Below, in pieces: positions 603 through 64,000 of a DNA stretch of 64,000 nt; position 1 is the stretch's first letter; every line of letters starts with the position of its first letter. The notes below the pieces were generated by a model. That model worked only from the letters and a program-made list of their open reading frames with translations, made no database searches and was not told the origin of the DNA. The translations under genes and the position numbers were made by a program. This stretch comes from Neoarius graeffei (taxonomy: Eukaryota > Chordata > Actinopteri > Siluriformes > Ariidae), in the NCBI RefSeq assembly GCF_027579695.1, contig NC_083575.1, positions 33,426,382 to 33,490,381 on the forward strand, read 5' to 3'.

Positions 603-664
603 TGGTTTCAAGCATTTAAAACTAGAAACCAGAGACCGTATAACATTATCGTTAAAGACTCAAC

Positions 665-2639: not shown

Positions 2640-2653
2640 ACCCAGTTCCGGTT

Positions 2654-3238
2654 GTGGGACAAACGGGGACTGGACCACAGACAAAGTGTCCCAAAAAGAA
2701 GCCGCACAGAGCCCGTGTGTGCTCTCACACACAAAAACAATCAGTGACCCTGCCAAAAGGTCTGATTGGAGCCAAGTGCACCACACAAGTGACCATAGGT
2801 AACAAAGACTGCAGTTGCTTGTTGGATACAGGCTCTCAAGTAACGATGATACCCAATTCCTTCTATCTAGAGAACCTGCCTCACTTACCTGTCAATTCCT
2901 TGAATGACCTGCTTGAAGTGGAAGGGGCCAATGGTCAAAGCGTACCTTACCTTGGCTATGTTTAGGCCACCATCAGATTCCCAAAGAGTTTGCTCAGAGC
3001 AGACATTGAGGTACCCACACTGGTTTTGGTTGTACCTGACATGCGCTCCACTTTGTCATCAGTGCTTATAGGTACAAATACTTTGGATGTTCTTTATGAA
3101 AAGTATGCAGACATTGCACCTCAGAACTATGAGTCTTTTCCTTATGGCTACAAAGTCATCTTAAAGACTCTTGAAATCAGGAAAAGACAGTCCGTTGATT
3201 CCAGTCTGGGAGAGGTGAGGCTTCATAGGAGACTTTGA
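2654..3238 (+). pseudogene. pol: Gypsy pol: aspartic protease region
   Basis: The retroviral-type aspartic protease would cleave the Gag-Pol polyprotein. The active-site motif LLDTGSQVT lies near 2818-2845, after the flap-leading TTQVTIGNKDC segment. The same frame is interrupted by a TAG at 2963-2965 and continues at once with sequence that fits the C-terminal half of the domain (PTLVLVVPDMRS). Downstream, the reading frame shifts before the RT part starting at 3246. The region is non-functional as it stands. Confidence 0.8.
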
Positions 3239-3245
3239 GACCATT

Positions 3246-3896
3246 GTGGCTGGACAGACCAAGGTCCTTGAAGGATCAGTAAGCTGCAGGATACATGATG
3301 TTGGAAAGTGGGTGATGGTAGAGTCACCAAAGTCAGCTTCCCTGCCAGGTGGCATCCTGGTGACAGATAGCCTGGTAAGTCTACCACCAAAGCTACCATG
3401 CTGCATACCAGTCGTGCTCAAGAACGAGTCACACCATGACATCACCCTGTCTCCAAAGGCTGTGATAGCAGAGATACATGCTGTCAAGAGTGTTCAACCT
3501 GTCAAGACCCCTGACTCAGATTCCCCCACAAAACCTGACCAAAGACCAAATCTCAACTTTGACTTCACTGACTCTCCTGTACCCAATGAGTGGAAAGAGA
3601 GGATAACAGAGAAATTGAGTTCCATGCCGGAGGTGTTTGCACTGCACAAACTTGATTTTGGTCGCACTGACAAAATAAACCACCACATAACCCTTAGTAA
3701 CAAGATGCCATTCAAACATAGGCCAAGACCTATACACCCCCAGGACATAGAGGCTGTGCGTACCCATCTCCAGCAACTCCTTGATGCAGAAGTCATCCGT
3801 GAATCGGAGTCGCCTTTCTCCTCGCCGATTGTAGTCATCAGAAAAAAGAATGGCGACGTCAGGCTCTGCATAGACTACAGAAAACTGAACACTCAA
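3246..3896 (+). pseudogene. pol: Gypsy pol: RT fingers, cut by LINE
   Basis: This is the N-terminal part of reverse transcriptase. Typical Ty3/Gypsy motifs are visible: HHITLSNKMPFKHRPRPI, the VIRESESPFSSPIVVIRKK block, and the DVRLCIDYRKLN box with its conserved DYR-LN core ending near 3890. The domain is then cut by the LINE insertion at 3897. The apparent continuation of the open frame to 4019 is LINE sequence, not Gypsy. Confidence 0.85.
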
Positions 3897-5609
3897 ATCA
3901 AATCAAATCAAATTTATTTGTATAGTGCTTTTAACAATAAACATTGTCGCAAAGCAGCTTTACAGAATTTGAATGACTTAAAACATGAGCTAATTTTATC
4001 CCTAATCTATCCCCAATGAGCAAGCCTGTGGCGACGGTGGCAAGGAAAAACTCCCTCAGACGACATGAGGAAGAAACCTCGAGAGGAACCAGACTCAAAA
4101 GGGAACCCATCCTCATTTGGGTAACAACAGACAGCCTGACTATAATATTAACAGTTTTAACAGGTATAAACCTCAACTGTCCTCATGGGGCCGTCCTTCA
4201 CAGGAGCGGTGCGATAAAACTCTGACCAGACACAGGGCACCAGGATGGATCAAGCAGGTCCGAGGGGCAGAAGAGGCCAGCATCTCAATCCCAGGATCAA
4301 CATGTAACTCAGAGGGACAGATTGGGGGGAAGAGAGAGAGAAAGAAAACACAGGTTGTTAGGTATGCCCTAAAAATGACAAGTATTAAATCTGTGTGGTA
4401 GGCTCACAGAGACTAGAGTCTTTACATCAGGCATAACACACAACAATGGCATGTTAATATGGTAAAAAATATCATGACCCTGCTCTGGCTGGATGCTTGA
4501 TTGGGTGATGGGAGCACACTCCTCAGCAATGATGAGATGCAGATGGGACCCTTAGGGCTGGCCAAGACAATTCAGTTACATTTCACCGGGTCTGGGACAT
4601 GCGACAGAATGTCTGATGGCCGATTCCCTGCAGGCTACGATAGCCAGTCGAGGTCTCCACCCTCTCCACCAAAAGATTTCCTGTTGACTCCATGTAACTC
4701 AGAGGGACAGATTTGGGGTGGGGGGAGGGAAAGAAAACACAGGTTGTTAGGTATGCCCAATGTCACCTGAATAAGTAGGAGCAGTATACATATTGCACCG
4801 AGTACAAGCAGGGACTCCGGCAACTAACTATGACAGCATAACTAAAAGGAGAGAGCCAGAAGGTAACACAGGCATGAGGGAGCCCCGGGACATAAAGCAG
4901 CCAGCCATTACACCGTCAACAAACTCGAGTGAGCAAGCGAGTGGGGACTGACAGCATCCATACATCCCAGTTTACCAAAACACTCTATGTCTGAGGACCC
5001 TCCAGATCTACTCCTTTACCTCATAAACACCATTAACAAAAGGCTTGACTAAACAGATATGTTTTCAGCCTAGACTTAAATGCTGAGACTGTGTCTGATT
5101 CCTGAATATTACTTGGAAGGCTGTTCCATAACTGTGGGGCTTTGTAAGAAAAGGCTCTGCCCCCTGATGTAGCCTTCACTATACGAGGTACCAGCAGATA
5201 ACCTGCACCTTTTGATCTAAGTAGGCATGGCGGGTCATAGAGGAGCAGAAGTTCACTCAGGTACTGTGGTGTGAGACCATTTAGTGCTTTAAAGGTCAAT
5301 AGTAGTATTTTATAATCAATACGAAATTTGATTGGGAGCCAATGCAGTGTGGATAAGACAGGCGTGATGTGGTCATATTTTCTAGTTCTAGTAAGGACTC
5401 TTGCTGCTGCATTTTGAACTAACTGGATCTTGTTTATGCACTTATTGGAACATCCAGACAGTAAGGCATTACAATAATCCAACCTGGAGGTAACGAAAGC
5501 ATGGACTAGTTTTTCTGCATCATGCAATGACATTAAATTTCTTATCTTTGCAATATTTCTGAGATGAAAGAAAGCTATCCGGGTGATGTTATCAATGTGA
5601 GTTTCAACT
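3897..5609 (-). mobile_element. 5'-truncated CR1/L2-type LINE in Gypsy RT
   Basis: A 1,713-bp insertion is flanked by CACTCAA at 3890-3896 and 5610-5616. Read on the minus strand it contains the C-terminal end of a LINE reverse transcriptase, then about 1.1 kb of 3' UTR, and it ends in short TTTGA-type tandem repeats (3897-3915), a tail style of CR1/L2/Rex1 LINEs. The stretch at 3930-4130, with its GGCAAGGAAAAACTCCC motif, is a very common fish LINE 3' segment. Inside the UTR a block of about 70 bp is present twice (about 4301-4370 and 4690-4760). The 5' truncation is the usual result of incomplete reverse transcription. Confidence 0.88.
5033..5533 (-). pseudogene. LINE ORF2 C-terminal fragment
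   Basis: A 166-codon open stretch shows the thumb/C-terminal region of a CR1/L2/Rex1-type reverse transcriptase: SRLDYCNALLSG, LVQNAAARVLTRT, HITPVLSTLHWLPI, DYKILLLTFKALNGL, and LWNSLPSNIQ near the end. The endonuclease, the palm domain and its catalytic box are missing because the element is 5'-truncated, so the fragment cannot be active. The stop at the low-coordinate end is probably the natural ORF end. Clade placement among CR1, L2 and Rex1 is uncertain. Confidence 0.8.
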
Positions 5610-6777
5610 CACTCAACAGTAAAAGATATATGAATATGAATGCCTTAACTAATCTGGAAGAGTCCTTCTCAGCGTTGACCAGGTCCCGGTGGTTCTCAAA
5701 TTAGGCTTCTATCAAATAGAGATGGACGAAGCAGACAAACACAAAACTGCATTCATCTGCCCACTAGGATTCTTTGAGTTCAACAGGATGCCTCAGGGGA
5801 TAACTAACGCCCCTAGCACGTTCCAGAGGCTTATGGAGCATTGTATGGGAGAGGTGAACTTGAAGCAAGCCCTAGTCTTTCTTGATGGCCTCATCGTCTT
5901 CTCCTCAACACTGGAGGAACACGAGGAAAGGTTGATGCGCGTGCTCAACCAATTGAAAGAGTTTGGTTTGAAACTGTCGCCAGGGAAATGTAAGTTCTTC
6001 CAAACCTCTGTAAAGTACCTTGGCCACATCATTTTTGTAAAAGGCATCGAAACCGATCCTGACAAAGTAGCAGCATTAAAAACCTGGCCAAAACCAAACA
6101 ACTTGAAAGAACTAAGAACCTTCCTGGGTTTCTGTGGTTATTACCATCGGTTTGTAAAAGACTACTCAAAGATTGTGAAGCCACTCAATGAGCTCACTGC
6201 TGGCTATCCGCTGCTGAGAAAGCACACTAAAACCACAGTGAACCCTGAGAAGTACTTCAACCCAAAGGACACCTTTGGTGACAGATGGATGCCTGCTTGC
6301 CAGGCAGCATTCGACACCATAATCGAAAGACTGACAACTGCACCCATCCTCGGGTTCGCTGACCCCAAGCTCCCCTACATTTTGCATACAGATGCGAGCA
6401 CCTTGGGCCTCGGTGCTGCCCTCTACCAGGAGCAACAGGGACAGAAACAAGTTGTTGCTTATGCAAGTCGAGGTCTGTCGAAATGTGAGTCCAGGTATCC
6501 TGCACACAAATTAGAATTCCTTGCCCTTAAGTGGGCAGTAACAGAGAAATTCCAGGATTACCTGTACGGGAACACATTCCTTGCTGTCACCGATAGCAAC
6601 CCATTAACATACATTCTTACCTCTGCTAAGCTCGACGCCACGAGCTACAGATGGTTGGCTGCTGTGTCAAAGTTTGATTTCCAGCTATAGTACAGAGCCG
6701 GTAAGCAAAATCAAGATGCGGACGGGCTGTCCAGGCATCCTCACAGCAGAGTACCTGATGACACATCATCAAAAGAG
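5610..6777 (+). pseudogene. pol: Gypsy pol: RT palm/thumb and RNase H
   Basis: The RT resumes after the LINE with LEESFSALT. It suffers a small deletion or frameshift around 5689-5700, then reads GFYQIEMDEADKHKTAFICP, NRMPQGITNAPSTFQRLM and the catalytic loop. The loop is FLDG (codon GGC at 5887-5889) where Gypsy elements have two adjacent aspartates, so one metal-binding residue is lost. RNase H follows: LHTDAS with its Asp at 6391-6393, KLEFLALKWAV and VTDSNPLTY. A TAG at 6688-6690 lies directly after FDFQL, before the YRAGKQNQDADGLSR motif that ends the RNase H region. Confidence 0.88.
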
Positions 6778-7137
6778 TTGGAGAGAATACGACAATTCAC
6801 AAAAAGACACTTGTTGGAGGCTGATTATGCACACCTGAATGAAAACACCATCAAAGCTATCTGTGAGAAGCACTTGGTCCACCAAGTGATCAACAATCAC
6901 TCTGGGGAGACATCACCCAACACCACCTTGGTTGTGTCACTTGCCCATCATCCGAAAGCTCTCCCACAAAGCTTTGAAGAGGAGGATCAGCTTGGTGGCT
7001 TACCTGTCGTCCCTTCGTTAGCACCAGCTGAAATAAGAGACAAGCAAAATGCTAATCCCTGCATCCATGAAGTCCTCAGGCAAGTGGAGTCGGGAGAGAA
7101 ACCCCCACCATCCTTGAGGAACCTTCCAAAGAGTTGA
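6778..7137 (+). pseudogene. pol: Gypsy pol: linker before lost integrase
   Basis: This is the segment that follows RNase H in Gypsy polyproteins and normally leads into the integrase zinc-binding domain. It keeps a motif of the type EIRDKQNANPCIHEVLRQVESG (split here to avoid a long string: EIRDKQNANPC then IHEVLRQ). Right where the HHCC zinc finger and the DDE integrase core should follow, the frame meets a TGA at 7135-7137 and the sequence jumps to the polyprotein tail. An internal deletion of most or all of the integrase is the simplest reading. Confidence 0.7.
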
Positions 7138-7595
7138 CTGCTGTTGAGCAAGATCCTTCAGATGTAGCCAAAGCTTTCCCCAAGGATTCTCCAGTAGGGA
7201 CTTGTGACCTGAACTTACCTGAATCCAGAGAGAAAGACTTACCTGATCCTGCAGACTATGACTTACCTAATCCTGAAGAGAGCAACTCAACTGCTGGACA
7301 GGAAACTGGAAGCCTACCTGAGGAAAACCTGGATAATGCCCATCCTTCTACTCAACCTGCTCAGGAGGGAAAAGACAACACAAGTGTTATGGACCAAACT
7401 GACATCCAGACGGAAAGCAACTGTTTGAGAAGACCCATCAGAGACAGAAAGGCACTTAAAAGACTGACTTATCTAGAGCTAGGAAACCCATTGGTAACAA
7501 TAGTTCAGTCTTTATTTCAAACCTTGAGTGATGTGTTTACAGACTCCCTTGAAGAACCTAGCTTTCCAAAAACCCCTAGAGTTATGACAGTATAG
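7134..7595 (+). pseudogene. pol: Gypsy pol: C-terminal tail
   Basis: A hydrophilic open stretch of 153 codons is rich in Pro, Glu, Asp and Ser, with a repeated DLP motif. It ends in RRPIRDRKALKRLTYLELG, the basic sequence typical of the polyprotein tail after integrase in fish Gypsy elements. It stops at 7593-7595, shortly before the polypurine tract. The assigned start is nominal, since the region was part of a larger polyprotein before the integrase deletion. Confidence 0.6.
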
Positions 7596-10650: not shown

Positions 10651-12262
10651 CAATGGTGCTTGAAGGTTTGTGAACCCTTTAGAATTTTCTATATTTCTGC
10701 AAAAATATGGCCTAAAACATAATCAGATTTTCACACAAGTCCTAAAAGCAGATAAAGAGAACCCAGTCAAACAAATGAGACAAAAATATTATACTTGGTC
10801 ATTTATTTATTGAGGAAAATGATCCAATATTACATATCTGTGAGTGGCAAAAGTATGTGAACCTCTAGGATTAGCAGTTAATTTGAAGGTGAAATTAGAG
10901 TCGGGTGTTTTCAGTCAATGGGATGACAATCAGGTGTGAGTGGGCACCCTGTTTTATTTAAAGAACAGGGATCTATCAAAGTCTGATCTTCACAACACAT
11001 GTTTGTGGAAGTGTATCATGGCATGAACAAAGGAGATTTCTGAGGACCTCAGAAAAAGTGTTGTTGATGCTCATCAGGCTGGAAAAGGTTACAAAACCAT
11101 CTCTAAAGAGTTTGGACTCCACCAATCCACAGTCAGACAGATTGTGTACAAATGGAGGAAATTCAAGACCATTGTTAACCTCCCCAGGAGTGTTTGACCA
11201 ACAAAGATCACTCCAAGAGCAAGGCATGTAATAGTCGGCAAGGTCACAAAGGACCCCAGGGTAACTTCTAAGCAACTGAAGGCCTCTCTCACATTGGCTA
11301 ATGTTAATGTTCATGAGTCCACCATCAGGAGAACACTGAACAACAATGGTGTGCATGGCAGGGGGATGCAAGGAGAAAGCCACTGCTCTCCAAAAAGAAC
11401 ATTGCTGCTCGTCTGCAGTTTGCTAAAGATCACGTGGACAAGACAGAAGGCTATTGGAAAAATGTTTTGTGGATGGATGAGACATAAATAGAACTTTTTG
11501 ATTTAAATGAGAAGCATTATGTTTGGAGAAAGGAAAAAACAGCATTCCAGCATAAGAACCTTATCCCATCTGTGAAACATTGTGGTGGTAGTATCATGGT
11601 TTGGGCCTGTTTTGCTGCATCTGGGCCAGAGCGGCTTGCCATCATTGATGGAACAATGAATTCTGAATTATACCAGCAAATTCGAAAGGAAAATGTCAGG
11701 ACACCTGTCCATGAACTGAACCTCAAGAGAAGGTGGGTCATGCAGCAAGACAATGACCCTAAGCATACAAGCTGTTCTACCAAAGAATGGTTAAAGAAGA
11801 ATAAAGTTAATGTTTTGGAATGGCCAAGTCAATGTCCTGACCTTAAACCAATCGAAATGTTGTGGAAGGACCTGAAGCAAGCAGTTCATGTGAGGAAACC
11901 CACCAAAATCCCAGAGTTGAAGCTGCTCTGTATGGATGAATGGGCTAAAATTCCTCCAAGCCAGTGTGCAGGACTGATCAACAGTTACCGGAAATGTCTA
12001 GTTGCAGTTATTGCTGCACAAGGGGGTCACACCAGATACTGAAAGCAAAGGTTCACATACTTTTGCCATTCACAGATATGTAATATTGGATCATTTTCTT
12101 CAATAAATAAATGACCAAGTATAAGATTTTTGTCTCCTTTGTTTAACTGGGGTCTCTTTATCTACTTTTAGGATGTGTGTGAAAATCTGATGATGTTTTA
12201 GGTCATATTTATGCAGAAATATTGAATATTCTAAAGGCTTCACAAACTTTCAAGCACCACTG
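10651..12262 (+). mobile_element. Tc1-like transposon family A, copy 1
   Basis: The 1,612-bp element starts CAATGGTGCTTGAAGG and ends CAAGCACCACTG. It has long terminal inverted repeats of about 200 bp (with GTGGCAAAAGTATGTGAACC in the left one) and is flanked by TA at 10649-10650 and 12263-12264, the standard Tc1/mariner target. It interrupts the RTE-like LINE exactly at a TA: reading across the site rejoins the LINE motif FIDYAKAFNCVNHNHLW. Two more copies of the family lie at 59029-61017 and 62483-64000. Confidence 0.95.
11018..12042 (+). pseudogene. Tc1 transposase (DD34E), inactive, copy 1
   Basis: The transposase would cut and paste the element. The ATG at 11018 is followed at once by a TGA at 11024-11026 (an Arg CGA codon decayed). 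A second CGA-to-TGA lies at 11195-11197, a 2-base frameshift near 11362, and a TAA at 11485-11487 after WMDET. The C-terminal half from 11572 to the stop at 12040-12042 is open and keeps the catalytic part: QQDNDPKHTS and KPIEMLWKDL, with 34 residues between the second Asp and the Glu. The N-terminal helix-turn-helix (GYKTISKEFGLHQSTVRQ-type) is recognisable. Of the three family-A copies here, this alone keeps the catalytic Glu. Confidence 0.9.
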
Positions 12263-30558: not shown

Positions 30559-30925
30559 CTCATCTCATTATCTCTAGCCGCTTTATCCTTCTACAGGGTC
30601 GCAGGCAAGCTGGAGCCTATCCCAGCTGACTACAGGCGAAAGGCGGGGTACACCCTGGACAAGTCGCCAGGTCATCACAGGGCTGACACATAGACACAGA
30701 CAACCATTCACACTCACATCTACGGTCAATTTAGAGTCACCAGTTAACCTAACCTGCATGTCTTTGGACTGTGGGGGAAACCGGAGCACCCGGAGGAAAC
30801 CCACGCGGACACGGGGAGAACATGCAAACTCCACACAGAAAGGCCCTCACCGGCCCCGGGGCTCGAACCCAGGACCTTCTTGCTGTGAGGCGACAGCGCT
30901 AACCACTACACCACCGTGCCGCCCC
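30559..30925 (-). mobile_element. tRNA-headed SINE, (ATGAG)n tail
   Basis: A full SINE of 367 bp is flanked by an exact 11-bp duplicate TGCATGATTAT (30548-30558 and 30926-30936). On the minus strand it starts with a tRNA-like head (GGCACGGTGGTGTAGTGG A box and GGTTCGAGCCC B box), then a body with GTTTCCTCCGGGTGCTCCGG, and ends in ATGAG-type tandem repeats. Such a tail suggests mobilisation by a CR1/L2-type LINE. Other copies: 46664, 57072, 58138 and 60450. Confidence 0.93.
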
Positions 30926-43331: not shown

Positions 43332-43337
43332 TTTATT
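43332..43337 (-). promoter_or_regulatory. Candidate poly(A) signal of meis1
   Basis: AATAAA on the minus strand, about 500 bp after the end of the terminal-exon coding remnant. Other signals further on are possible. Confidence 0.35.
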
Positions 43338-43830: not shown

Positions 43831-44105
43831 CTACTGTACATGGATGTCCAAGACTTGTCTGCCCATGGTGGGATCTCCTGGGGGAAATGTAGAGGGGCTG
43901 GAGGTTAACATGGGCATGGCAGGGTGGGCTGGTCCTCCAAGCATCAACATCGCTGAGTGCTGGGGATGTCCAGGAATGCAGGAACACATCAGAGGCCCAG
44001 GCCGCAGCTGGTGGGGGAGCTGTGGGCTGCCGCAGGCAGGCTGGCACATGCCCATGGCCATTGGACTGCTATGAGGCAGGTAGACCCCTGGCATGCCCTG
44101 CAATC
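43831..44105 (-). pseudogene. meis1: meis1 terminal exon, degenerate long C-terminus
   Basis: Read in the ancestral frame the exon encodes 90 residues that align end to end with the long C-terminus of MEIS1: LQGMPG at the start, CIPGHPQHSAMLMLGGPAHP in the middle, GDPTM and QVLDIHVQ at the end, stop TAG 43831-43833. Many residues differ, including Tyr-to-Cys and His-to-Leu changes in usually stable positions, while the three exons upstream are near-perfect. The expected acceptor AG directly before GATTGCAG reads AT (CCCCCACAT). The next AG, after GATTGCAG, would start the exon at 44097 and shift the frame to a stop within nine codons. The exon probably survives as 3' UTR of the short isoform. 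Confidence 0.75.
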
Positions 44106-45185
44106 ATGTGGGGGGAAGAACATAAGAACTGCTTCGAAAAACTCAGTTTCAAACATACTGATACTCTCGCACACCAACATATTTACACATTTATATCAAA
44201 AACATAGGCTTCAAAATAATGACAAATTCATTATATCATTTTATCTAAGTAGCTATCTAGCAATAAAAGCTATAATAAGCAGCCCAAAGAATAAAATTAC
44301 TCTCTAGATTTTGGCATCTCAATAATGAATTCATTATTGTATAATGGGTCATCATCAGAATAGTACAATGTAAACTCTTATGTGTTATCTTCAGACACAA
44401 ACGACATCCTTGTCAATAACTGCTGGCAGCCGGTGATTTTGCCACTTATAAATGCTCCGTTGCTGACTACTCGCAGTGGGTTTTTTTTTTCAAAAAAATT
44501 AAACTTTTCCTTGTATTTTTATGACATGCTTTGTTTTTTTATTCACTAAGAAAAGCAATCTTTTTAGATGGTAAGAATCGTGTTTGTGCTATGACTACGA
44601 CCATTGTTTACTAGTATTTATGTCAGTACTACGCATGTGTTATCTTGCCGAGTTACATGTACACTTCATAAAAGTGAAGTCTGTTGATCTGCGTATTTTG
44701 TTGGCAATAAAAATCACATGGTTTTATTGACTGAGAGCTTTATTAACATTAATGAAGTACAAAGTTAACAGATAAATAAAAAGTAACAATAGGAGAGAAC
44801 TTATTCCACAGCGGTCCCATAATCGAGGTATTGAGGTGTTGTTATACAGGTAAAATTCTCTGAAAAACGAATGCAACTGCACGTTAGGCTTACAACAGCC
44901 AATATTTTGAAGAGGCAAGTGAAGAATACTGACTTCTTTAACAAATCTCATGTTGCAAAAAGATCCAAAATGCAAGGTAATTAGCACCGGACAAATATTG
45001 CAGTGACTGCTAATAACATATGACAAATTATGCACAAATTATGTCTTTATGATTTTCTCCGGATCCAGGACAAATTTTTGAGTGATAATAGGCAAACAAG
45101 CAATGCTTGGGCCCACAAGTATAATATAGGATGTCATATCGCTGTTTGTTGAACTTGGATGGCTGTGAGAATGAGGATAAAATAT

Positions 45186-46663: not shown

Positions 46664-47029
46664 CTCATCTCATCTCATAATCTGTAGCCGCTTTATCCTG
46701 TTCTACAGGGTCGCAGGCAAGCTGGAGCCTATCCCAGCTGACTACGGGCAAAAGGCGGGGTACACCCTGGACAAGTCGCCAGGTCATCACAGGGCTGACA
46801 CATAGACACAGACAACCATTCATATTCATGGTCAATTTAGAGTCACCAGTTAACCTAACCTGCATGTCTTTGGACTGTGGGGGAAACCGGAGCACCCGGA
46901 GGAAACCCACGCGGACACGGGGAGAACATGCAAACTCCGCACAGAAAGGCCCTCGCCGGCCACGGGGCTCAAACCCAGACCTTCTTGCTGTGAGGCAACA
47001 GCGCTAACCACTACACCACCGTGCCGCCC
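46664..47029 (-). mobile_element. tRNA-headed SINE in meis1 intron
   Basis: Same family as 30559-30925. It is flanked by an exact 11-bp duplicate CACTTCCACTT (46653-46663 and 47030-47040). It is complete from tRNA head to ATGAG tail and lies in the sense orientation of meis1. Confidence 0.93.
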
Positions 47030-49762: not shown

Positions 49763-50390
<628 letters not shown>

Positions 50391-50480
50391 CAGGTGGTCT
50401 GATTCCCATGTGCTGCTGGCCGTCCATCACAAAGCCTCCCATGGGCTGACCATCTGGGTTGTAGGGGGCTCCTTGACTTA
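50391..50480 (-). CDS. meis1: meis1 exon after the homeodomain
   Basis: A 90-bp exon with acceptor CTCCCACAG and donor G|GTAAG. It completes a split Val codon and reads [15 protein letters not shown] then [15 protein letters not shown], ending in the first base of a Gly codon. This sequence is almost identical to vertebrate MEIS1; MEIS2 differs with SPEGQPMGSFVLDGQ. Exon length and both phases fit the vertebrate gene. The segment lies C-terminal to the homeodomain, in the region linked to transcriptional activation. Whether this is the meis1a or meis1b paralogue cannot be decided here. Confidence 0.95.
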
Positions 50481-51333
50481 CTGTGGGAGAATGAGGGAGG
50501 GCACAGGACAGTGGTCAATTAGTGCTTTTAATTAAGTTTCCATTACTGAGAGTACATCATCTGCAAACAGATAGACAGGTTAATACTTAGCTCATTTTAA
50601 CTTCCTCATTATCTTATATGATAATTAGTCATGAATGCATATCAAATCAGACTTAAATAGTAAAAGGACAGCTGATATTTAGTAAATGCTAGAGAAACTG
50701 AGAAGGTACCTTTTTGTTTTAACTGTGAGCTATGACAGGTATATGCTGTTTGGAAGGGAATGGAAGAAGCGAGACTTTTCATCAAAAACAATAGCTCAAC
50801 CTTAGTGAATGCCTTTGAACTTTCTTGAGTCCCCTAATGCAACTCTGCCCTCTGAACCCCATTACAGCTCATAAACTTTAAAGCAGTCCACAACATGCCA
50901 TGCACCAGGGAGACTACTCATTGCAAAGAGGAATGAGGAAAAGCTGGGAGGCCAAACAAATTCACAAAAAAACTTTTATATAATTCTCCTCATTTAATTT
51001 CACTTGTTTAGATTTTTTTTTTCTTCTGTTTAACTCAAACCAGTTGTTGACTGGACAAGAGCCATGGTATTTTAGAATCTGACATCAGTCACTGTTACAG
51101 TTTCAGTACTATAATCGATAATGTCTATTTACTTTGCTTCTCTTTTAAGGATGGTATAAGGGCCCTGAGTCAGCATGATTAGTCTTTTGAGTTAATTGAA
51201 TAGATTTTAGTGGTCAATCACTCCTGACATCCAGGCTGGCTGGTGTATTTACAGAGAGGCAAGCCTTTTTGTACACTGATGGAAGAGGACTTTCGCCTGT
51301 GTGATTTGCACACAGTTACTAGAGGGGACTTGC
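50481..51333 (-). other. meis1 intron with GC donor
   Basis: An 853-bp intron. Its donor reads GCAAGT (51333-51328) after exonic GAGCAG, so it belongs to the minor GC-AG class; the acceptor is a normal CCCACAG. No repeats or genes are seen inside. Confidence 0.88.
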
Positions 51334-51392
51334 CTGCTCGGTTGGACTGGTCGATCATTGGCTGGACTATTCTCCTTCGTGCATTAATGAAC
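51334..51392 (-). CDS. meis1: meis1 last homeodomain exon
   Basis: A 59-bp exon, entered through the acceptor CTTTTCCAG. It supplies the last base of the Trp codon and reads FINARRRIVQPMIDQSNRA, the end of homeodomain recognition helix 3 (WFINARRR, with the DNA-contacting Asn51 and Arg53) and the stretch after it. It ends one base into a Val codon, matching the phase of the 90-bp exon. The preceding homeobox exons are not in the window, so the upstream intron is longer than 12.6 kb. The product binds TGACAG-type sites with PBX and HOX proteins. Confidence 0.96.
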
Positions 51393-53019: not shown

Positions 53020-54771
53020 TTGAGGGCAGGAATGAGTAGGGAGTGATGGGGGAGCTGTAGAAGCTGTGAGGAAAAAGCATGAATGGTCATGCTTTGCCCT
53101 GTGCACCAAGCAGACAGTTAAAGAAGTTGCTGAAAAGAGGGCTAAGAGAGAAAGCCAGTGCAGTGGAGCTTGGCTAAAGCCAGCTTCCCCTTGATTATGA
53201 GTAAAAAGTTCACTTTTGCGCAAACCAGCCACACTATAGGGCTGCATTTACAGCCTGTTCAGTTTCAGCTTGCCATCATCACACAATGAAAGCAGCTATT
53301 CAACCCAGCCATGGACAATGGGGGCCTATTTTGGAATAAAACGCCACCAGTGGTACCTCTGAAGTCAGGTGAAATGAGTAGAGGGCAAAAGGAAAACAAA
53401 GAGCTTAGAAAAATGACCGAAAAATAGCCACTTATGAGTCAAATGAAGCACAAAAGAAGGCCTTTTTCTCCCCATCACCTCTGGTCCCATTTCTCCAAAA
53501 GTGTGTGTTTGTTCATACTTTTTTGGAGCCTCTTCCACAGAGAGAGTGGAAGTGATTGCTGTCTCGTCTGCAGGGGCACTTATAATATCCCATCCTCATT
53601 ACAAATGCCCAGGTGTAGCCCAATCGGCACATGAAATGGCCAATTAAAACCAAGAAATTGTCTTTTTCATCAGCTGCCTTTGTTGCGTGACCAATTAGGG
53701 GAAAGATCCAGATTGGAGATACAAAAGGTTACATCACAGCGTGTCTATCTAAATGCATATGAAGTCGTCCATTTTCTTCAGCAAGGCTTCTTCAGCCTGC
53801 TCCTCTCTCCCCTCTCCAAATCTAACCTGAGCAAGGTGGCAGTATGTGCACAACCACAGACAGCCAAATTCACTCAAAAAATCACGTCAACCAACTCAAC
53901 TATGTTTACATGTATATTAAAATTCCACACAAGGGCACACTGGTTATGCCGGAGAAGAGGAATGGTGACTCTTCCGTACCTCCGTTATCACAGCAAAAAC
54001 CTGGACACAAACAAATGAAAGTGGGTACAAGTTTGCATATGGAATGTAATTATCATCAGGTTGATGTTTTATTGACACAAGGATGGATATGTTCTAAATA
54101 GACCATATTATGAATTAACTGGCAGATGATCTTATACACACTGAACAGTGTATTCTACCCATTCCTCCTTGCTTCACACCCACACACCCCTCCCCCACAT
54201 CATACCTCTCCAATGAAGCCAACTTTATTATCTGAACCAGAGATCCATTTACTTAAGCAATTAGTTACATTAGTCTTCAGTCACATGCTAGCATGCCCAG
54301 AGGTGCAAAAGAGCATTACTCCTTTCATTCTCACTGAAAGAATTCAATCATAGAATTCATCTGCCCCCCCATGCCAAACAGGGGTCAATCACTCATTCTG
54401 GCCTGTGTTTAAATAAACCCGTCCAACTGTTTGCTGTACAGATTTCATATACACTCCTGACACTCCACTCTCTCTCTTTAGCCCCTTTTACACAGCCTGT
54501 TCAAGGCAGGAATCTTACACCTTTATTCCTCATTCCGTCCGAATGAGGAATGGGGGTCCGTGTTGTTCTGCTTCTGAGCCTTAACGGTTGGTAGCAACAG
54601 AGTTGGAATTGATGTCTGGGTAAAAGGAAAAGCCGGCATAGCGGGACTTGGGGTGTGATGTTTTTGACATTGACATTCTTCTTTCTGAGCCCAGCATGAA
54701 TTAAAATGTCTACATCTACAGTGTCTAAGGTCTGTGTGCCTTTCTGCTCAAATTGCTTCCTACTTTTCTTC

Positions 54772-55051
54772 TTCTTCCTCCTTGTCCAGCACTACTGCCA
54801 GGTCGGGGTCCATGTGGACCCTACTGATCCACATGTCATATGAATTGGAGTGTGGTTTTACGCCGGATGCCTTTCCTGCCACAATCCTCCCACTTCTGGG
54901 TTTGGGAAACAACCATTCACACACACACACATTCACACCTATGGACAATTTAGAATAGACAATTAGCCTAACTGCATGTCTTTGGACTGTGGGAGGAAAC
55001 CGGAGCACCCGGAGGAAACCCACGCAGACATGGGGAGAACATGCAAACTCC
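54772..55051 (-). mobile_element. Second SINE-type element, truncated
   Basis: A 280-bp insertion is flanked by a 17-bp duplicate, GCTTCCTACTTTTCTTC (54755-54771 and 55052-55068). Part of its body (GTTTCCTCCGGGTGCTCCGG and CAAAGACATGCA) is shared with the tRNA-headed SINE. It lacks the tRNA head and has a different 3' part (GGAAAGGCATCCGGCGTAAA) ending in a GGAGGAAGAA-like tail. It looks like a 5'-truncated copy of a related LINE-mobilised family. Confidence 0.85.
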
Positions 55052-56799
55052 GCTTCCTACTTTTCTTCACTTTCTCCTATTTCTGATCAGAATCAGAAAT
55101 ATTTTAATAATCCCAAGGGGAAATGGAGTAATTATGTGAAAGGGGAGAGCACAAATGCATTCCCCCACTGTCAGAAATTATACAGTTGAGATTCCTGAAT
55201 TTGAGGAATTCGAAAAGGTCAGCCCAGCTCAAGTACAATGGCTGAGCCTCGCTTTGGGCAAACCACCTTCTTGATCATAGTATTGCCTCTGCCAGGTAAG
55301 TAAGATATGATAATAAGATCACACAAATATGTGGCTCAACTAAAGGACTCAAACATGTTTTATATACTGAGGCTATAACTTCCCTTTAACATGAAGCATT
55401 TAACGGAAGTGATTACATGTTGCATATGATGCTCAGCAACTTTGCTTGTGTTTGAAGAGTGGTATAAGTGCACATGACTAACAAAAGCACCTCAACACTG
55501 TTCACCCAATGTTGTTTTGAAAGCAACGCCAGTATGCTCTGAGTATTCATATTTCCAACATGTAGATATGTTACTATAGACACAGACGCTTTGTTGTGAC
55601 ACATCACACCTCTGGTTGCGGAACGTTGACTCGCAATGTAAAAACACACTGGCATGGCTTCCTGCCGGCTTTATTTGGTTCAGTGTAAATCACTAAAGCC
55701 AGAATATTGAGGTATCTTCTTTACGTCAATATTATGGAATATCTGTGTAAAAAGGGTTTTTCTCTCCCTCGCTTGTTCACTCTCACCTATTCTTGTGTCT
55801 CAGCACATACCCTGTACATACAACAACATACATTCAGACACAGGCATGTTTTATTTCACAAAGACTTTAAACAGACTAGAATGTTAAGAAACACACCTTG
55901 AAAACAAGGAAATGAAACCTGAGGAGCATCATACATAGTCCTTCACAGCAACCATGTTACAACATGCACACACCTTCCATCACTACAGCAAATTGTATAG
56001 GAGTTACTTCTTTGTTCTGCATTGTGCTATGACATGAACTTTATCCCTTTTTACTAAGGTATCTGCTTGCCATTCTACTGATGTGTTAAAATGAGCTGCG
56101 CTAAATTTCTTTAGCTCGATCAAATACCTGCTGTTACACTGAAAAACAAGAAAACCTGTGACACAGTCATATATCATGTCCATTTTTTACTTCACTCCCC
56201 AGAATGAATTTCATAAGCTCTTGCAAATTACTTGCCCATGGAAGCAACTTTCTGACTGAAGAGCCTGGCTCCACTACACATTAGGGAACACCATCTAGCT
56301 CAGCCCTAACTCCTACAAACAATACAGGGATTACCTGGCTCTGCTCTGCAGCAGGTCTCCCCTGTCCAAAGAAAACAGTGGTGATGTAGAAGGGGCTTTC
56401 AGGGAAGGGGTCGGCCTAATCCTCCAGCGCCCAAGTGGCTAGGTTGCTATTACTCCACCAACTACCCCCTCTCTTCCCTCTATGTACAGGCTGCACTGTC
56501 CCAACTTCTCACCAAACAGAGTTAAAACCTTTCCATTAACAGAGCTGTGAAGTTGGCTTTTATGGCAAAAGAGCTGTTGCCTAGGGCCCCTGGGACTCAC
56601 TTTATAAAAACATGGCTGGTCAGGGAGATTGAAAGAGAGAATGAGAAGGTGAGAGATGGAGAGAGACGCATAGACAAACTGATGGTGTGGTTGAAGAGTG
56701 TCGTCAGGAATGCTTAGCTTTCATTTCAGTAGCAGGCTCATAGATCCCTATTTAGTGACCAAATACTGATGAATGCAACTGTGACAACTGTAAAAATAT

Positions 56800-57800
56800 T
56801 ACATGGATGAGTGTTTTACTGGGACTCCCCACTCATACTTTTCATACAAACTACATCTGGAACATTGAGAACAGCAACCAACATATTTCTCTATATGTCA
56901 CTCGTGAGGAAACCGATTAAATGTTTTGATACATTTTGGTCCTTTTTGTTTGTGAATGTGTCCATATAATAAAAAGAAAATCACACACTGGCTTGAAGAT
57001 ATGAACTTTATCTTCTTGTATTGAAAAACCTGCATTTTTCAAATGAAATACATCCCAGACCTGAGTGACATCCATCCATTATCTGTAACTGCTTATCCTC
57101 TTCAGGGTCGCAGGCAAGCTGGAGCTTATCCCAGCTGACTATGGGCGAGAGGCAGGGTACACCCTAGACAAGTCGCCAGGTCATTGCAGGGCAAACACAT
57201 AGAGACAAACAACCATTCACACATATGATCAATTTAGAACCACCAACTAGGCTAAACTGCATGTCTTTGGACTGCGGGGGAAACCGGAGCACCCAGAGGA
57301 AACCCATGCAGACATGGGGAGAACACGCAAACACCACACAGAAAGGCCCTTGTCGGCCACTGGGCTCAAACCCAGGACCTTCTTACTGTGAGGCAACAGT
57401 GCTAACCACTACACCACCGTGCCACCTCCTGAGTGACATATTTCCTGATATTTCATTCCAGTGACATCACTCCCACTGTTTTCCTGCTGACTAGACATGG
57501 GTTGCCAAAATGGCAAATCGGTTCAAAATTAAAATTATTTTGATTAACTTGCATATTTTTTGTGGATATGTCTATATAATATAAAGAACATTACACAGTG
57601 GCATGAAGATATGAAGTTTATTTTCAAGGGGTGAACATATTTTACAAGTGGGCATAGCGAACAAGTGATATATTTTTCAACATGAGAATATAAACTTCAT
57701 ATCTTCAAGCCAACATGTGATGTTCTTTTTATTTTTGGATTTTTTAAAAAATACAAGTGGCGTATTTTCCAGTAAAACACTCATGTCCATATAATATATA
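56800..57800 (-). repeat. Dispersed repeat, copy 2, split by SINE
   Basis: This is an inverted copy of the sequence at 17341-17815, interrupted by the SINE at 57072-57428. Matching landmarks run through both halves. A further partial duplicate (57641-57800) repeats the AACTTCATATCTTCAAG and AGTAAAACACTCATGTCC motifs, so the family has internal tandem structure. Confidence 0.78.
57072..57428 (-). mobile_element. tRNA-headed SINE, older copy
   Basis: Flanked by an 11-bp duplicate CTGAGTGACAT (57061-57071 and 57429-57439). It is more diverged than the other copies and its tail reads ATCCATT instead of ATGAG repeats. It splits dispersed repeat copy 2. Confidence 0.9.
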
Positions 57801-58137: not shown

Positions 58138-58510
58138 CATCTCATCTCATCATCTCTAGCTGCTTTATCCTTCTACAGGGTCGCAGGCAAGCTGGAGCCT
58201 ATCCAGCTGACTACGGGTGAAAGGCAGGGTACACCCTGGACAAGTTGCCAGGTCATCACAGGGCTGACACATAGACACAGAAAACCATTCACACTCACAT
58301 TCACACCTATGGTCAATTTAGAGTCACCAGTTAACCTAACCTGCATGTCTTTGGACTGTGGGGGAAACCGGAGCACCCGGAGGAAACCCACGCGGACACG
58401 GGGAGAACATGCAAACTCCACACAGAAAGGCCCTCACTGGCCACGGGGCTCGAACCCAGACCTTCTTGCTGTGAGGCGACAGTGCTAACCACTACACCAC
58501 CGTGCCGCCC
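58138..58510 (-). mobile_element. tRNA-headed SINE
   Basis: Complete copy flanked by an exact 12-bp duplicate CCAGAATGAATT (58126-58137 and 58511-58522), with (ATGAG)n tail at the low-coordinate end. Confidence 0.93.
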
Positions 58511-59032: not shown

Positions 59033-59395
59033 GGTGTTTGAAAGTTTCTGAACCCTTTAGAATTTTCTATATTTGTGCATAAATATGACCTAAAATGTCA
59101 TCAGATTTTTACACAAATCCTAAAAGTAGATAAAGAGAACCCAGTTAAACAAATGAGACAAAAATATTATACTTGGTCATTTATTTATTGAGGAAAATGA
59201 TCCAATATTACATATCTGTGAGTGGCAAAAGTATGTGAACCTCTAGGATTAGCAGTTAATTTGAAGATGAAATTAGAGTCAGGTATTTTCAATCATTGGG
59301 AAAAGAATCAGGTGTGAGTGGGCACCCTGTTTTATTTAAAGAACAGGGATCTAACAAAGTCTGATCTTCACAACACATGTTTGTGGAAGTGTATC

Positions 59396-60407
59396 ATGGC
59401 ACGAGATTTCTGAGGATATCAGAAAAAGCATTGTTGATGCTCATCAGGCTGGAAAAGGTTACAAAACCATCTCTAAAGAGTTTGGACTCCACCAGTCCAC
59501 AGTCAGACAGATTGTGTACAAATGGAGGAAATTCAAGACCATTATTACCCTCCCCTGGAGTGGTCGATCAACAAATATCACTCCAAGAGCAAGGTGTGTA
59601 ATAGTCCGCGAGGTCACAAAGGACCCCAGGGTAATTTCTAAGCAACTGAAGGCCTCTCTCACATTGGCTAATGTTAATGTTCATGAGTCCACCATCAGGA
59701 GAACACTGAACAACAATGGTGTGCATGGCAGGGTTGCAAGGGTTGCTACTGCTCTCCAAAAACAACATTGCTGCTCATCTGCAGTTTGCTAAGGATCACG
59801 TGGACAAGCCAGAAGGCTATTTGAAAAATGTTTTGTGGATAGATGACACAAAAATAAAACTTTTTGGTGTAAATGAGAAGCATCATGTTTGGAGAAAGGA
59901 AAACACTGCATTCCAGCATAAAAACCTTATCCCATCTGTGAAACATGGTGGTGGTAGTATCATGGTTTGGGCCTGTTTTGCTGCTTCTGGGCCAGGACGG
60001 CTTGCCATCATTGATGGAACAATGAAGTCTGAATTATAGCAGCGAATTATAAACGAAAATATCAGGACATCTGTCCATGAACTGAATTTCAAGAGAAGGT
60101 GGGTTATGCAGCAAGATAACGACCCGAAGCACACAAGTCATTCTACCAAATAATGGTTAAAGAAGAATAAAGTTAATGTTTTGGAATGGCCAAGTCAAAG
60201 TCCTGACCTTAATCCAATCAAAATGTTGTGGAAGGACCTGAAGCGAGCAGTTCATTTGAGGAAACCCACCAACATCCCAGAGTTGAAGCTGTTCTGTATG
60301 GTTGAATGGACTAAAATTCCTTCAACCGGTGTGCAGGACTGATCAACAGTTACCGGAAATGTTTAGTTGCAGTTATTGCTGCACAAGGTGGTCACACCAG
60401 ATACTGA
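59396..60407 (+). pseudogene. Tc1 transposase, inactive, copy 2
   Basis: The ATG at 59396 is followed by a 7-base deletion after codon 3 relative to copy 3, so the frame is lost at once. The DNA-binding region (FGLHQSTVRQIVYKWRKF) and the catalytic parts are readable in pieces: WIDDTKIKLFGV, SIMVWACFAASGPGRL, then TAG right after MKSEL (60037-60039). A TAA follows before [12 protein letters not shown], and the third catalytic position is Lys (NPIKMLW) instead of Glu. The last three lesions are shared with copy 3. The end at 60405-60407 corresponds to the family's natural stop. Confidence 0.9.
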
Positions 60408-60449: not shown

Positions 60450-60828
60450 CTCATCTCATCTCATTATCTCTAGCCACTTTATCCTGTTCTACAGGGTCGC
60501 AGGCAAGCTGGAGCCTATCCCAGCTGACTACGGGCGAAAGGCAGGGTACACCCTGGACAAGTCGCCAGGTCATCACAGGGCTAACACATAGACACAGACA
60601 ACCATTCACACTCATATTCACACCTACGGTCAATTTAGAGTCACCAATTAACCTAAGCTGCATGTCTTTGGACTGTGGGGGAAACCGGAGCACCCGGAGG
60701 AAACCCATGCGGACACGGGGAGAATATGCAAACTCTGCACAGAAAAGCCCTCGCCGGCCACGGGGCTCGAACTCGGACCTTCTTGCTGTGAGGTGACAGC
60801 GCTAACCACTACACCACCGTGCCGCCCC
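60450..60828 (-). mobile_element. tRNA-headed SINE inside Tc1 copy 2
   Basis: Flanked by AGATATGTAAT (60439-60449) and AGATATATAAT (60829-60839), an 11-bp duplicate with one mismatch. It sits in the right terminal repeat of the Tc1 copy, so it is the younger insertion. Confidence 0.92.
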
Positions 60829-61198: not shown

Positions 61199-62480
61199 CA
61201 GTGCCTACAGAAAAAAGGTATTATACTCCAACAAATGGCACATAAAATTGACATTTTCTCATCACGTTCATAATTTAAAAATTTTAAAATGTCAGTCAAA
61301 AAAAGTAAGGACGCAGTGGAAAAAGTACGTACATCCGTACATTGATCATACTTTCAAGTCCATAAAATTATAATCAAGTGCTCCAGATTAGGTGCCATTG
61401 ATTAGAACCTCTTGCAGGTGGAACCTATCTTATTTAAACCTGCCATCTACAATCAGTCTTTTCTTTGCTATTGAATTGTGTGGAGTCATCATGCCAAGCT
61501 ATAAAGAACTCTCTAAGGGCCTCAAACAAAAGGTTGTGTATGCCTATTAATCTGACAATTAATTTAAAAAGATTTCTAAATTACTAGAAATAAGTCATTC
61601 CACTATAAGGAAAATCATCTATAAGTGGTATAGATTTCAAAACAACTGTCAATTTGTCCAGGATTGGCCACCCCAGCAAATTCAGTGCAAGAGCAGACTT
61701 TTTGATGCTAAAAGAAGTCTCCAAGAACCCCAAAATTGCATCACTGGATCTGCAGGTAACTCTTGCAACTGTTTGTGTGAAAGTGCACATATCTACAATC
61801 AGAAAGACATTGGAAAATTTGATCTGCATGGGAGGCGTGCCAGGAAAAAGCCCTTGCTGTCCAAAAGGAACGTGAAAGCAAGACTACAGTTTGCCAATGA
61901 ACATATAGGCAAAGACCAGGCCCTTTGGAATAACGTGCTCTGGACAGATGAATCGAAGGTAGAGTTGTCTGGCCAAAGTAAGAGTACACATGTGGCACAG
62001 ACCAAAGACGGCTTTTCAAGAAAAGAACCTCATACCAAACGTGAAGCATGGTGGTGGAAATCTTATGATTTGGCGTTGCTTCACTGCCTCAGGGACTGGG
62101 AAACTGGCATTCATTGATTCAACTATGAATTCTGAATCATATCAAAAAGTGCTTGAAGATAATGTGAGTCCATCTGTTCAAAAGTTGAAGTTGAACCAGA
62201 GGTGGACCTTTCAACAAGATAATGATCCGAAGCACACTAGCAAATCCACCAAAGAATGGCTCAAAAAAAGAAATAGAGGGTTATGGAATGGACTAGACAA
62301 AGCCCAGATTTGAACCTCATTGAAATGTTGTGGGGAGAATTGAAAAGGGCAGTATTTGCAAGAAAACCCTCAAACCCTCATCTTGCAACTGAAAGAATTT
62401 TGCATGGAAGAGTGGTCAAAAATTTTAGCAAGCCAATGTCAGAGACTGATGGACAATTATGCAAAATGCCTACAAGAAGT
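61199..62480 (+). mobile_element. Tc1-like transposon family B, right end missing
   Basis: A second Tc1 family starts CAGTGCCTACAG at 61199 and carries a decayed transposase. It is interrupted on the right by Tc1 family A copy 3, inserted at a TA (62481-62482); its remaining end would lie beyond the window. The left end lacks a neighbouring TA because a MITE seems to have inserted there. Confidence 0.82.
61491..62480 (+). pseudogene. Tc1 family B transposase relic
   Basis: The start at 61491 opens MPSYKELSKGLKQKVVYAY, followed at once by a TAA. The helix-turn-helix (ISKLLEISHSTIRKIIYKW) is recognisable. Frame changes follow, then KKPLLSKRNVKARLQFANEH, LWTDESKVELSG with the first catalytic Asp, and, in another frame, FQQDNDPKHTSKSTKEWLKK. 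A frameshift and a TGA (PDL region, near 62311) precede LIEMLWGELKRAV, where the catalytic Glu is kept. The protein is clearly not functional. It differs from family A throughout. Confidence 0.88.
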
Positions 62481-62482
62481 TA

Positions 62483-64000
62483 CAGTGGTGCTTGAAAGTT
62501 TGTGAACCCTTTAAAATTTTCTATATTTCTGAATAAATATGACTGAAAACATCATCAGATTTTCACACAAGTCCTAAAAGTAGATAAAGAGAACCCAGTT
62601 AAACAAATGAGACAAAAATATTGTACTTGGTCATTTATTTATTGAGGAAAATGATCCAATATTACATATCTGTGAGTGGCAAAAGTATGTGAACCTTTAC
62701 TTTCGATATCTGATGTGACCCCCTTGTACAGCAATAACTGTTGATCAGTCCTGCACACCGGCTTGGAGGAATTTTATCCCATTCCTACATACAGAACAGC
62801 TTCAACTCTGGGATGTTGGTGGGTTTCCTCACATGAACTGCTCGCTTCAGGTCCTTCCACAACATTTTGATTGGGTTAAGGTCAGGACTTTGACTTGGCC
62901 ATTCCAAAACATTAACTTTATTCTTCTTTAACCATTATTTGGCAGAATGACTTGTGTGCTTAGGGTCGTTCTCTTGCTGCATGACCAACTTTCTCTTGAG
63001 ATTCAGTTCATGGACAGATGTCCTGATATTTTCCTTTATAATTCGCTGCTATAATTCAGACTTCATTGTTCCATCAATGATGGCAAGCCGTCCTGGCCCA
63101 GAAGCAGCAAAACAGGCCCAAACCATGATACTACCACCACCATGTTTCACAGATGGCATAAGGTTCTTATGCTGGAATGCAGTGTTTTCCTTTCTCCAAA
63201 CATAACGCTTCTCATTTACACCAAAAAGTTCTATTTTTGTCTCATCCATCCACAAAACATTTTTCAAATAGCCTTCTGGCTTGTCCACATGATCTTTAGC
63301 AAACTGCAGATGAGCAGCAATGTTCTTTTTGAGAGCAGTGGCTTTCTCCTTGCAACCCTGCCATGCACACCATTGTTGTTCAGTGTTCTCCTGATGGTGG
63401 ATTCATGAACATTAACATTAGCAAATGTTGCTTAGAAGTTACCCTGGGGTCCTTTGTGACCTCGCCGACTATTACATGCCTTGCTCTTGGAGTGATCTCT
63501 GTTGGTCGACCACTCATGGGGAGGGTAACAATGGTCTTGAATTTCCTCCATTTGTACACAATCTGTCTGACTGTGGATTGGTGGAGTCCAAACTCTTTAA
63601 AGATGGTTTTGTAACCTTTTCCAGCCCGATGAGCATCAACAACGCTTTTTCTGAGGTCCTCAGAAATCTCCTTTGTTCGTGCCATGATATATTTCCACAA
63701 ACATGTGTTGTGAAGATCAGACTTTGATAGATCCCTGTTCTTTAAATAAAACAGGGTGCCCACTCACACCTGATTGTCATCCCATTGATTGAAAATACCT
63801 GACTCTAATTTCACCTTCAAATTAACTGCTAATCCTAGAGGTTCACATACTTTTGCCACTCACAGATATGTAATATTGGATCATTTTCCTCAATAAATAA
63901 ATGACCAAGTATAATATTTTTGTCTCATTTGTTTAACTGGGTTCTCTTTATCTACTTTTAGGACTTGTGTGAAAATCTGATGATGTTTTAGGTCATATTT
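62483..64000 (-). mobile_element. Tc1-like transposon family A, copy 3 (runs off)
   Basis: It starts CAGTGGTGCTTGAAAG after TA at 62481-62482 and lies in opposite transposase orientation to copies 1 and 2. The right terminal repeat is cut by the window end; about 80 more bases would be expected. It interrupts Tc1 family B. Confidence 0.95.
62702..63685 (-). pseudogene. Tc1 transposase, inactive, copy 3
   Basis: The start codon at 63685-63683 begins MARTKEISEDLRKSVVDAHR, the best-kept N-terminus of the three copies, with the helix-turn-helix FGLHQSTVRQIVYKWRKF. After SKQ a 16-base deletion shifts the frame (near 63431). The catalytic part then reads WMDETKIELFGVNEKRYVW and HGGGSIMVWACFAASGPGR, ending at TAG after MKSEL. 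Beyond it are the TAA before [12 protein letters not shown] and the NPIKMLW change at the catalytic Glu, all shared with copy 2. A further deletion of roughly 25 bases lies near the C-terminus. Confidence 0.9.

Follow-up and report, generated by a model that had tools for sequence, protein, structure and literature searches.

The window, a stretch of 64,000 nucleotides of Neoarius graeffei DNA, carries on its minus strand the last exons (3' end) of the teleost meis1b gene. The matching locus in the 2.34 Gb N. graeffei assembly, C7:33426382-33490381, is identical to the window letter for letter, and the earlier meis1b exons lie upstream on the same contig.

The 3' end of meis1b

The gene was assigned to meis1b on the basis of its 3' homeodomain exon, an exon B of the Meis1b type and orthology to named Meis1b proteins. 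Among the best 120 of 765 protein matches, the closest was Meis1b of Clarias gariepinus (P0001, 85% over the 139 residues given), followed by a Pangasianodon hypophthalmus protein (P0002, 83%). The type of exon B in the window differs from those on C18 (meis1a), C11 (meis2a), C3 (meis2b) and C24 (meis3). Downstream of exon B lie two alternative ends: a cassette exon with its own stop codon, whose short end is also seen in many vertebrate Meis1 proteins, and a terminal exon encoding the long tail (Table 1).

Table 1. Parts of the meis1b 3' end, in window positions
Feature	Position	Strand	Details
meis1b exon, 3' end of the homeodomain	51334..51392	-	59 nt; FINARRRIVQPMIDQSNRA; then GC donor AACCGAGCAG/gcaagt
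Exon B, upstream of the alternative ends	50391..50480	-	90 nt; last base G; ends CACCTG/gtaaga; protein matches
Cassette exon	49763..49856	-	Own stop 49800-49798; donor GTAAGT; short isoform, intact
Putatively lost acceptor, AT replacing AG	44106..44107	-	Directly before the long-tail exon
Long-tail exon	43831..44105	-	Homologous start 44105; open frame of 90 codons and TAG at 43833-43831 (LQGMPG...DIHVQ*)
AG at +8, exon start 44097	44098..44099	-	Not in frame, GHARGLPAS*; expected to be the acceptor chiefly used for the terminal exon
AG at +18, exon start 44087	44088..44089	-	In frame, GVYLPHSS...; weak acceptor score
Candidate poly(A) signal	43332..43337	-	First AATAAA/ATTAAA downstream of the terminal exon stop

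Two further coding stretches were noticed next to these exons. The bases behind the GC donor of the homeodomain exon (CAG/gcaagt; 51218-51333, minus strand) encode GKSPLVTVCKSHRRKSSS, which resembles an insert, GKSPIVTVFKSRRRK, that Meis1 models of gar, shark and mammals contain, and the GKSPLVTVCKSHRRKSSS stretch is probably a conserved alternative extension. In the cassette exon, a second AG (49791-49790) shortly after the stop opens a 27-nt stretch (49763-49791, minus strand) encoding VNQSQSSGE, which ends one base into a codon, a phase in which the stop would be avoided and the tail exon could be joined. Its counterpart in the Pangasianodon gene model P0002 reads VNQSQSSGG.

The remainder of the window contains several repeats. 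Judging from their translations, the pieces at 656-7595 (plus strand; zinc knuckle, DTG protease and reverse transcriptase) presumably belong to a Ty3/gypsy-like retrotransposon, the polymerase frame of which is broken between about 4019 and 5653, and fragments on both strands at 10976-12042, 59355-60039, 61563-62313 and 63049-63763 were taken, also from translations, to encode Tc1/mariner-like transposases. A short repeated element occurs in related copies at 30583-30846, 46665-47003, 54760-55056, 57168-57464, 58173-58433 and 60451-60801. On the minus strand they translate as RVRVGFLRVLRFPPQSKDMQVRLTGDSKLT or a close variant (for the copy at 57168, the other reading was seen); one copy lies inside the intron between the cassette and the tail exon.

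The acceptor of the long-tail exon and its alternatives

The terminal exon was confirmed as the homologue of the long MEIS1 C-terminus: joined at the homologous start, its frame encodes a tail with the DIHxQ end. By homology, the exon opens with GATTGCAGGGCATGCCAGGGG. The letters at the junction read ...TTCTTCCCCCCACAT/GATTGCAGGGCATGCCAG/GGGTCTAC..., and direct reading bore out the preliminary description in that AT stands where the acceptor AG is expected. Canonical AG acceptors precede the corresponding exons of meis2a (TGTTGCAG/GTCTGCAGGGCATGCCAGGGG) and meis3 (CTCTGCAG/GGCTTCAGGGAATG) in the same genome. Rare non-AG introns exist, and splicing of the terminal exon through the AT of an unusual intron type was considered, but the intron opens with GTAAGA, a donor of the ordinary U2 type, and a good AG is available eight bases further on, so that a non-AG or U12-type acceptor was rejected as highly improbable. 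Rescue through an upstream acceptor was rejected as well. A TGA codon stands directly ahead of the first TTG of the tail and closes the tail frame to any acceptor further upstream; the six AGs within 60 bases on that side all fail to reach this frame.

The AG eight bases in gives GHARGLPAS and then a stop, as had been claimed; the same survey had overlooked a second AG, 18 bases in, which is in frame (GVYLPHSS...DIHVQ*). Use of the +18 AG would join the junction glycine to 84 tail residues with the frame kept. Both inner CAGs occur in meis2a also and hence are probably old exon sequence rather than new splice sites. The candidates were scored with a simple and rough 3' splice-site matrix. It gave 2.2 bits for the AT site, 9.9 for the +8 AG and 1.4 for the +18 AG, compared with 10.1, 11.5 and 12.2 bits for three real acceptors of the window (the cassette, homeodomain exon and exon B, respectively). 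In the preceding intron, only 2 of 377 AGs reached the score of the +8 site, and 87 of 377 equalled or exceeded that of the +18 site. The +8 AG is thus expected to dominate, its score being near those of real acceptors and far above the AT and +18 sites.

The presence of the in-frame AG means that loss of the long isoform could be partial. The long isoform might even survive as a shortened protein, minus LQGMPG and with 84 tail residues after the junction glycine, given that the AG at 44089-44088 is in frame with 50391, that both downstream AGs are CAG and that no stop interrupts the frame before its normal end. This reading seems unlikely to us. The site scores 1.4 bits, has no pyrimidine tract of its own and faces a far stronger out-of-frame AG ten bases upstream. 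The residues that would be lost are well conserved: across 15 sequences M and P never vary, and L and Q hardly do. Nor do the tail changes in this lineage spare residues that are commonly conserved, although the results on that point are mixed (see below).

We consider it likely that meis1b of this catfish lineage lost its normal long-tail isoform through the change at the terminal-exon acceptor, and the gene probably makes the short form only. The spliceosome would now use the AG eight bases in. When the cassette is included, the normal short protein would be made with the terminal exon as 3' UTR; when it is skipped, the +8 AG would yield a short protein ending GHARGLPAS. The in-frame +18 AG may yield traces of a long protein minus six residues. 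The first of these products agrees with the preliminary description, in which the cassette exon was intact, with a GTAAGT donor after its stop, and the terminal exon could serve as 3' UTR. Under the rule for nonsense-mediated decay, the stop-to-junction distance that matters is 50-55 nt; the 35 nt between the cassette stop and the junction fall under it, so the cassette isoform should escape decay. Most likely, then, the intact cassette isoform now uses the terminal exon as its 3' UTR, and of the long isoform at most a trace remains. No protein ending HARG... was found in the last 60 residues of 262 proteins (best 120 of 600 matches, with near-identical proteins clustered), a weak point against this explanation.

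Divergence of the tail and its distribution

The tail frame, open over 90 codons and with no indel relative to Clarias, counts against the loss. A neutral frame with as many changes would remain free of stops with a probability of 0.69, and the open frame was rejected as evidence of use. It may be a leftover and is no proof that the tail is used. The radical substitutions reported in the preliminary description were found, but the tail is fast-evolving in other catfishes too. Outside the tail, three differences from Clarias were counted, at residues 55, 57 and 61 of P0001 (tblastn pieces from residue 4, splice-junction mismatches ignored), none of them in the homeodomain exon or exon B of the window. 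Within the tail, seven sites were changed only in the window, six only in Clarias and four only in Pangasianodon, and two differed in all three. After polarization by hand with Astyanax and Pygocentrus, leaving out two sites shared by two catfishes, nine lineage-specific changes fell to the window lineage, seven to Clarias and three to Pangasianodon. Clarias, the gene model of which still reads the exon, changes almost as fast as the window lineage, which also counts against the loss.

Attempts to find relaxed constraint gave mixed results. The mean conservation of changed columns was 0.85 for the window, 0.90 for Clarias and 0.81 for Pangasianodon (0.85 for all columns), so that the window was not set apart and this measure was rejected as a sign of relaxation. 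In a second measure, chosen after the first, the residues lost in the window lineage had a mean frequency of 0.77 in 64 other Meis1 tails vs. 0.43 for Clarias and Pangasianodon pooled (one-sided Mann–Whitney p 0.027; all-column mean 0.63). Counts of conserved sites at a cut of 0.85 (6 of 9 vs. 3 of 10) did not differ significantly (Fisher p 0.18). The tail data would fit relaxed constraint without proving it.

These changes also bear on the possibility that the AT reflects a wrong base or a private allele, with AG and the long isoform kept in the species as a whole. It concerns a single base in one assembly, of which the window is itself a stretch and so gives no second reading, and the exon frame is otherwise intact. 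Against this stand the lack of any N in the window and the radical changes in the same lineage: these affect tail residues that are common in other Meis1 tails, and an isolated error would not account for them. We judge an error or allele improbable, slightly more so than a shortened isoform made through the +18 AG, and loss of the normal long-tail isoform remains the best reading of the DNA.

The gene models of the two other catfishes indicate the state before the change. The Clarias model P0001 joins IRPPG/LQGMPG. The Pangasianodon model P0002 has an extra 27-nt piece before LQGMPG, its codon phase fits a two-base start ahead of TTG, and it probably represents a variant that skips the cassette stop. 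Since both models imply the usual acceptor, the AT looks derived; as far as two gene models can tell, catfishes seem originally to have had the usual acceptor. Clarias gariepinus and Pangasianodon hypophthalmus share with N. graeffei the orthologous gene, the same tail and a three-residue deletion in it relative to Astyanax and Pygocentrus; unlike in N. graeffei, the tail exon is joined in frame in their models, directly in Clarias and behind the 27-nt piece in Pangasianodon. Other otocephalan Meis1b models, including these two catfishes, still read the long-tail exon, which argues for a late, lineage-specific change of the acceptor and not for one that followed directly on the teleost duplication.

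The Meis1 long end is present from sharks to mammals, including gar, birds and many fishes, as seen from protein matches. Among the best 120 of 765 matches, 14 were teleost proteins of the Meis1 type with a long tail, complete or degenerate. We take them to come from catfishes, characiforms, cyprinoids, clupeiforms, elopomorphs and osteoglossomorphs, the last two counted as Meis1-type only. None of the 14 was from a euteleost, and the euteleost long tails among the same best 120 of 765 matches had a Meis2-type exon B. One of the Meis1-type proteins, P0077 of Scleropages formosus, has a strongly degenerate long tail, perhaps another independent decay.

The cassette-type short-end exon was found in 52 of the best 120 of 718 matches, 25 of them from named euteleosts by our own count. 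In 24 of these 25, the protein ends GQWHYM, and Pleuronectes P0195 runs into HLQGQPGDGVSHRG. Apparent remnants of the tail, picked by eye, were seen in the models of Salvelinus (LQGMPGNDLSDDG...), Kryptolebias (ELQGNHVSHRG...), Centroberyx affinis (ELQGLPGDYLSHRGPLSMGTG...) and Champsocephalus (GQPGDHLSRRG); other euteleost models run into unrelated sequence. Compared with six chosen tails, the Centroberyx match was strong (1e-8), and the best E values of the others ranged from 0.002 to 0.07. The five euteleost Meis1b models (Salvelinus, Kryptolebias, Centroberyx affinis, Pleuronectes and Champsocephalus), all gene predictions, look like they carry decayed copies of the same exon, and the short end is found in other euteleost models. 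Beyond about 11 to 30 residues their resemblance to the tail dwindles, with traces further on in Centroberyx, whereas the N. graeffei frame runs open to the normal end. As the proteins were clustered at 90% identity, the absence of euteleost Meis1 long tails should be read as an indication and not as a count of losses.

Paralogues and known systems

A tree of pieced-together proteins, in which Clarias Meis1b stood for the window gene, placed C18 with Meis1a, C3 with Meis2b, C11 with Meis2a and C24 with Meis3. Both meis2a and meis3 keep the long-tail exon with normal acceptors. The cassette exon is present in meis1a and meis2b, but no long-tail exon came up in the 16.8 kb that follow it in meis1a or in the 27.5 kb that follow it in meis2b; these flank searches were run with and without a low-complexity filter (L037, L038 and L041) or with the filter (L042 and L043). 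A whole-genome search with the window tail gave matches below E 0.01 on C7 and C11 only and missed the diverged meis3 tail, which marks its limited reach.

By these searches, meis1b appears to be the last meis1 copy with a long-tail exon found in this genome. Because none was found beside meis1a, this is not the case of one paralogue dropping what its sister keeps. The acceptor change came long after the teleost duplication. The preliminary description had suggested a paralogue-specific loss of one isoform following that duplication; the loss itself stands as the best reading, and both the timing and the paralogue logic call for revision.

Altogether, these observations raised a broader hypothesis, for and against which we see the chances as about even. 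On this view, teleosts could repeatedly do without the Meis1 long tail that shark, gar, bird and mammal proteins carry, with meis2a still retaining a long tail. The tail would be absent from meis1a, present in a decayed state in euteleost meis1b and dropped in a separate event by a catfish that is left with no Meis1 long isoform. In this catfish the acceptor would have fallen before the frame, possibly giving GHARGLPAS as a third short end. If true, the natural, repeated loss offers a ready-made test of the function of the long end, and also of whether the long form of Meis2 could stand in for that of Meis1. It would also capture a stage of isoform loss, acceptor first and frame later, which annotation can miss because the open frame looks usable.

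Searching by title and the beginning of the abstract, with subscription journals thinly covered, we found no report of a fish that has lost the Meis1 long isoform, and passages of PMC8544432 held nothing bearing on it. In mouse and human, according to PMC3157405, the Meis1a (short) and Meis1b (long) proteins differ by splicing out of exon 12, and the two forms may differ in the subsets of genes that they activate. The mouse isoform Meis1b and the fish gene meis1b are different things. Mammalian MEIS1 and N. graeffei meis1b have the same exon order, the same short end and a homologous long end; unlike in MEIS1, the long-tail exon of N. graeffei is preceded by AT, and its long end has diverged and is probably unused.

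The kind of event is already known from the fish mitf duplicates, for which differential degeneration of alternative exons after duplication was described (Altschmied 2002, as cited in PMC1890551 and PMC5306129). There, as here, a copy of a duplicated transcription-factor gene loses an alternative exon. In N. graeffei, duplicates without an alternative exon kept in relatives were likewise found (no tail for meis1a and meis2b, a tail in meis2a), and complementary retention by the sister copy was not seen, no tail exon having been found for meis1a. Unlike in mitf, the search found no tail exon beside the sister meis1a either, and it is the last meis1 copy that goes, much later than the duplication.
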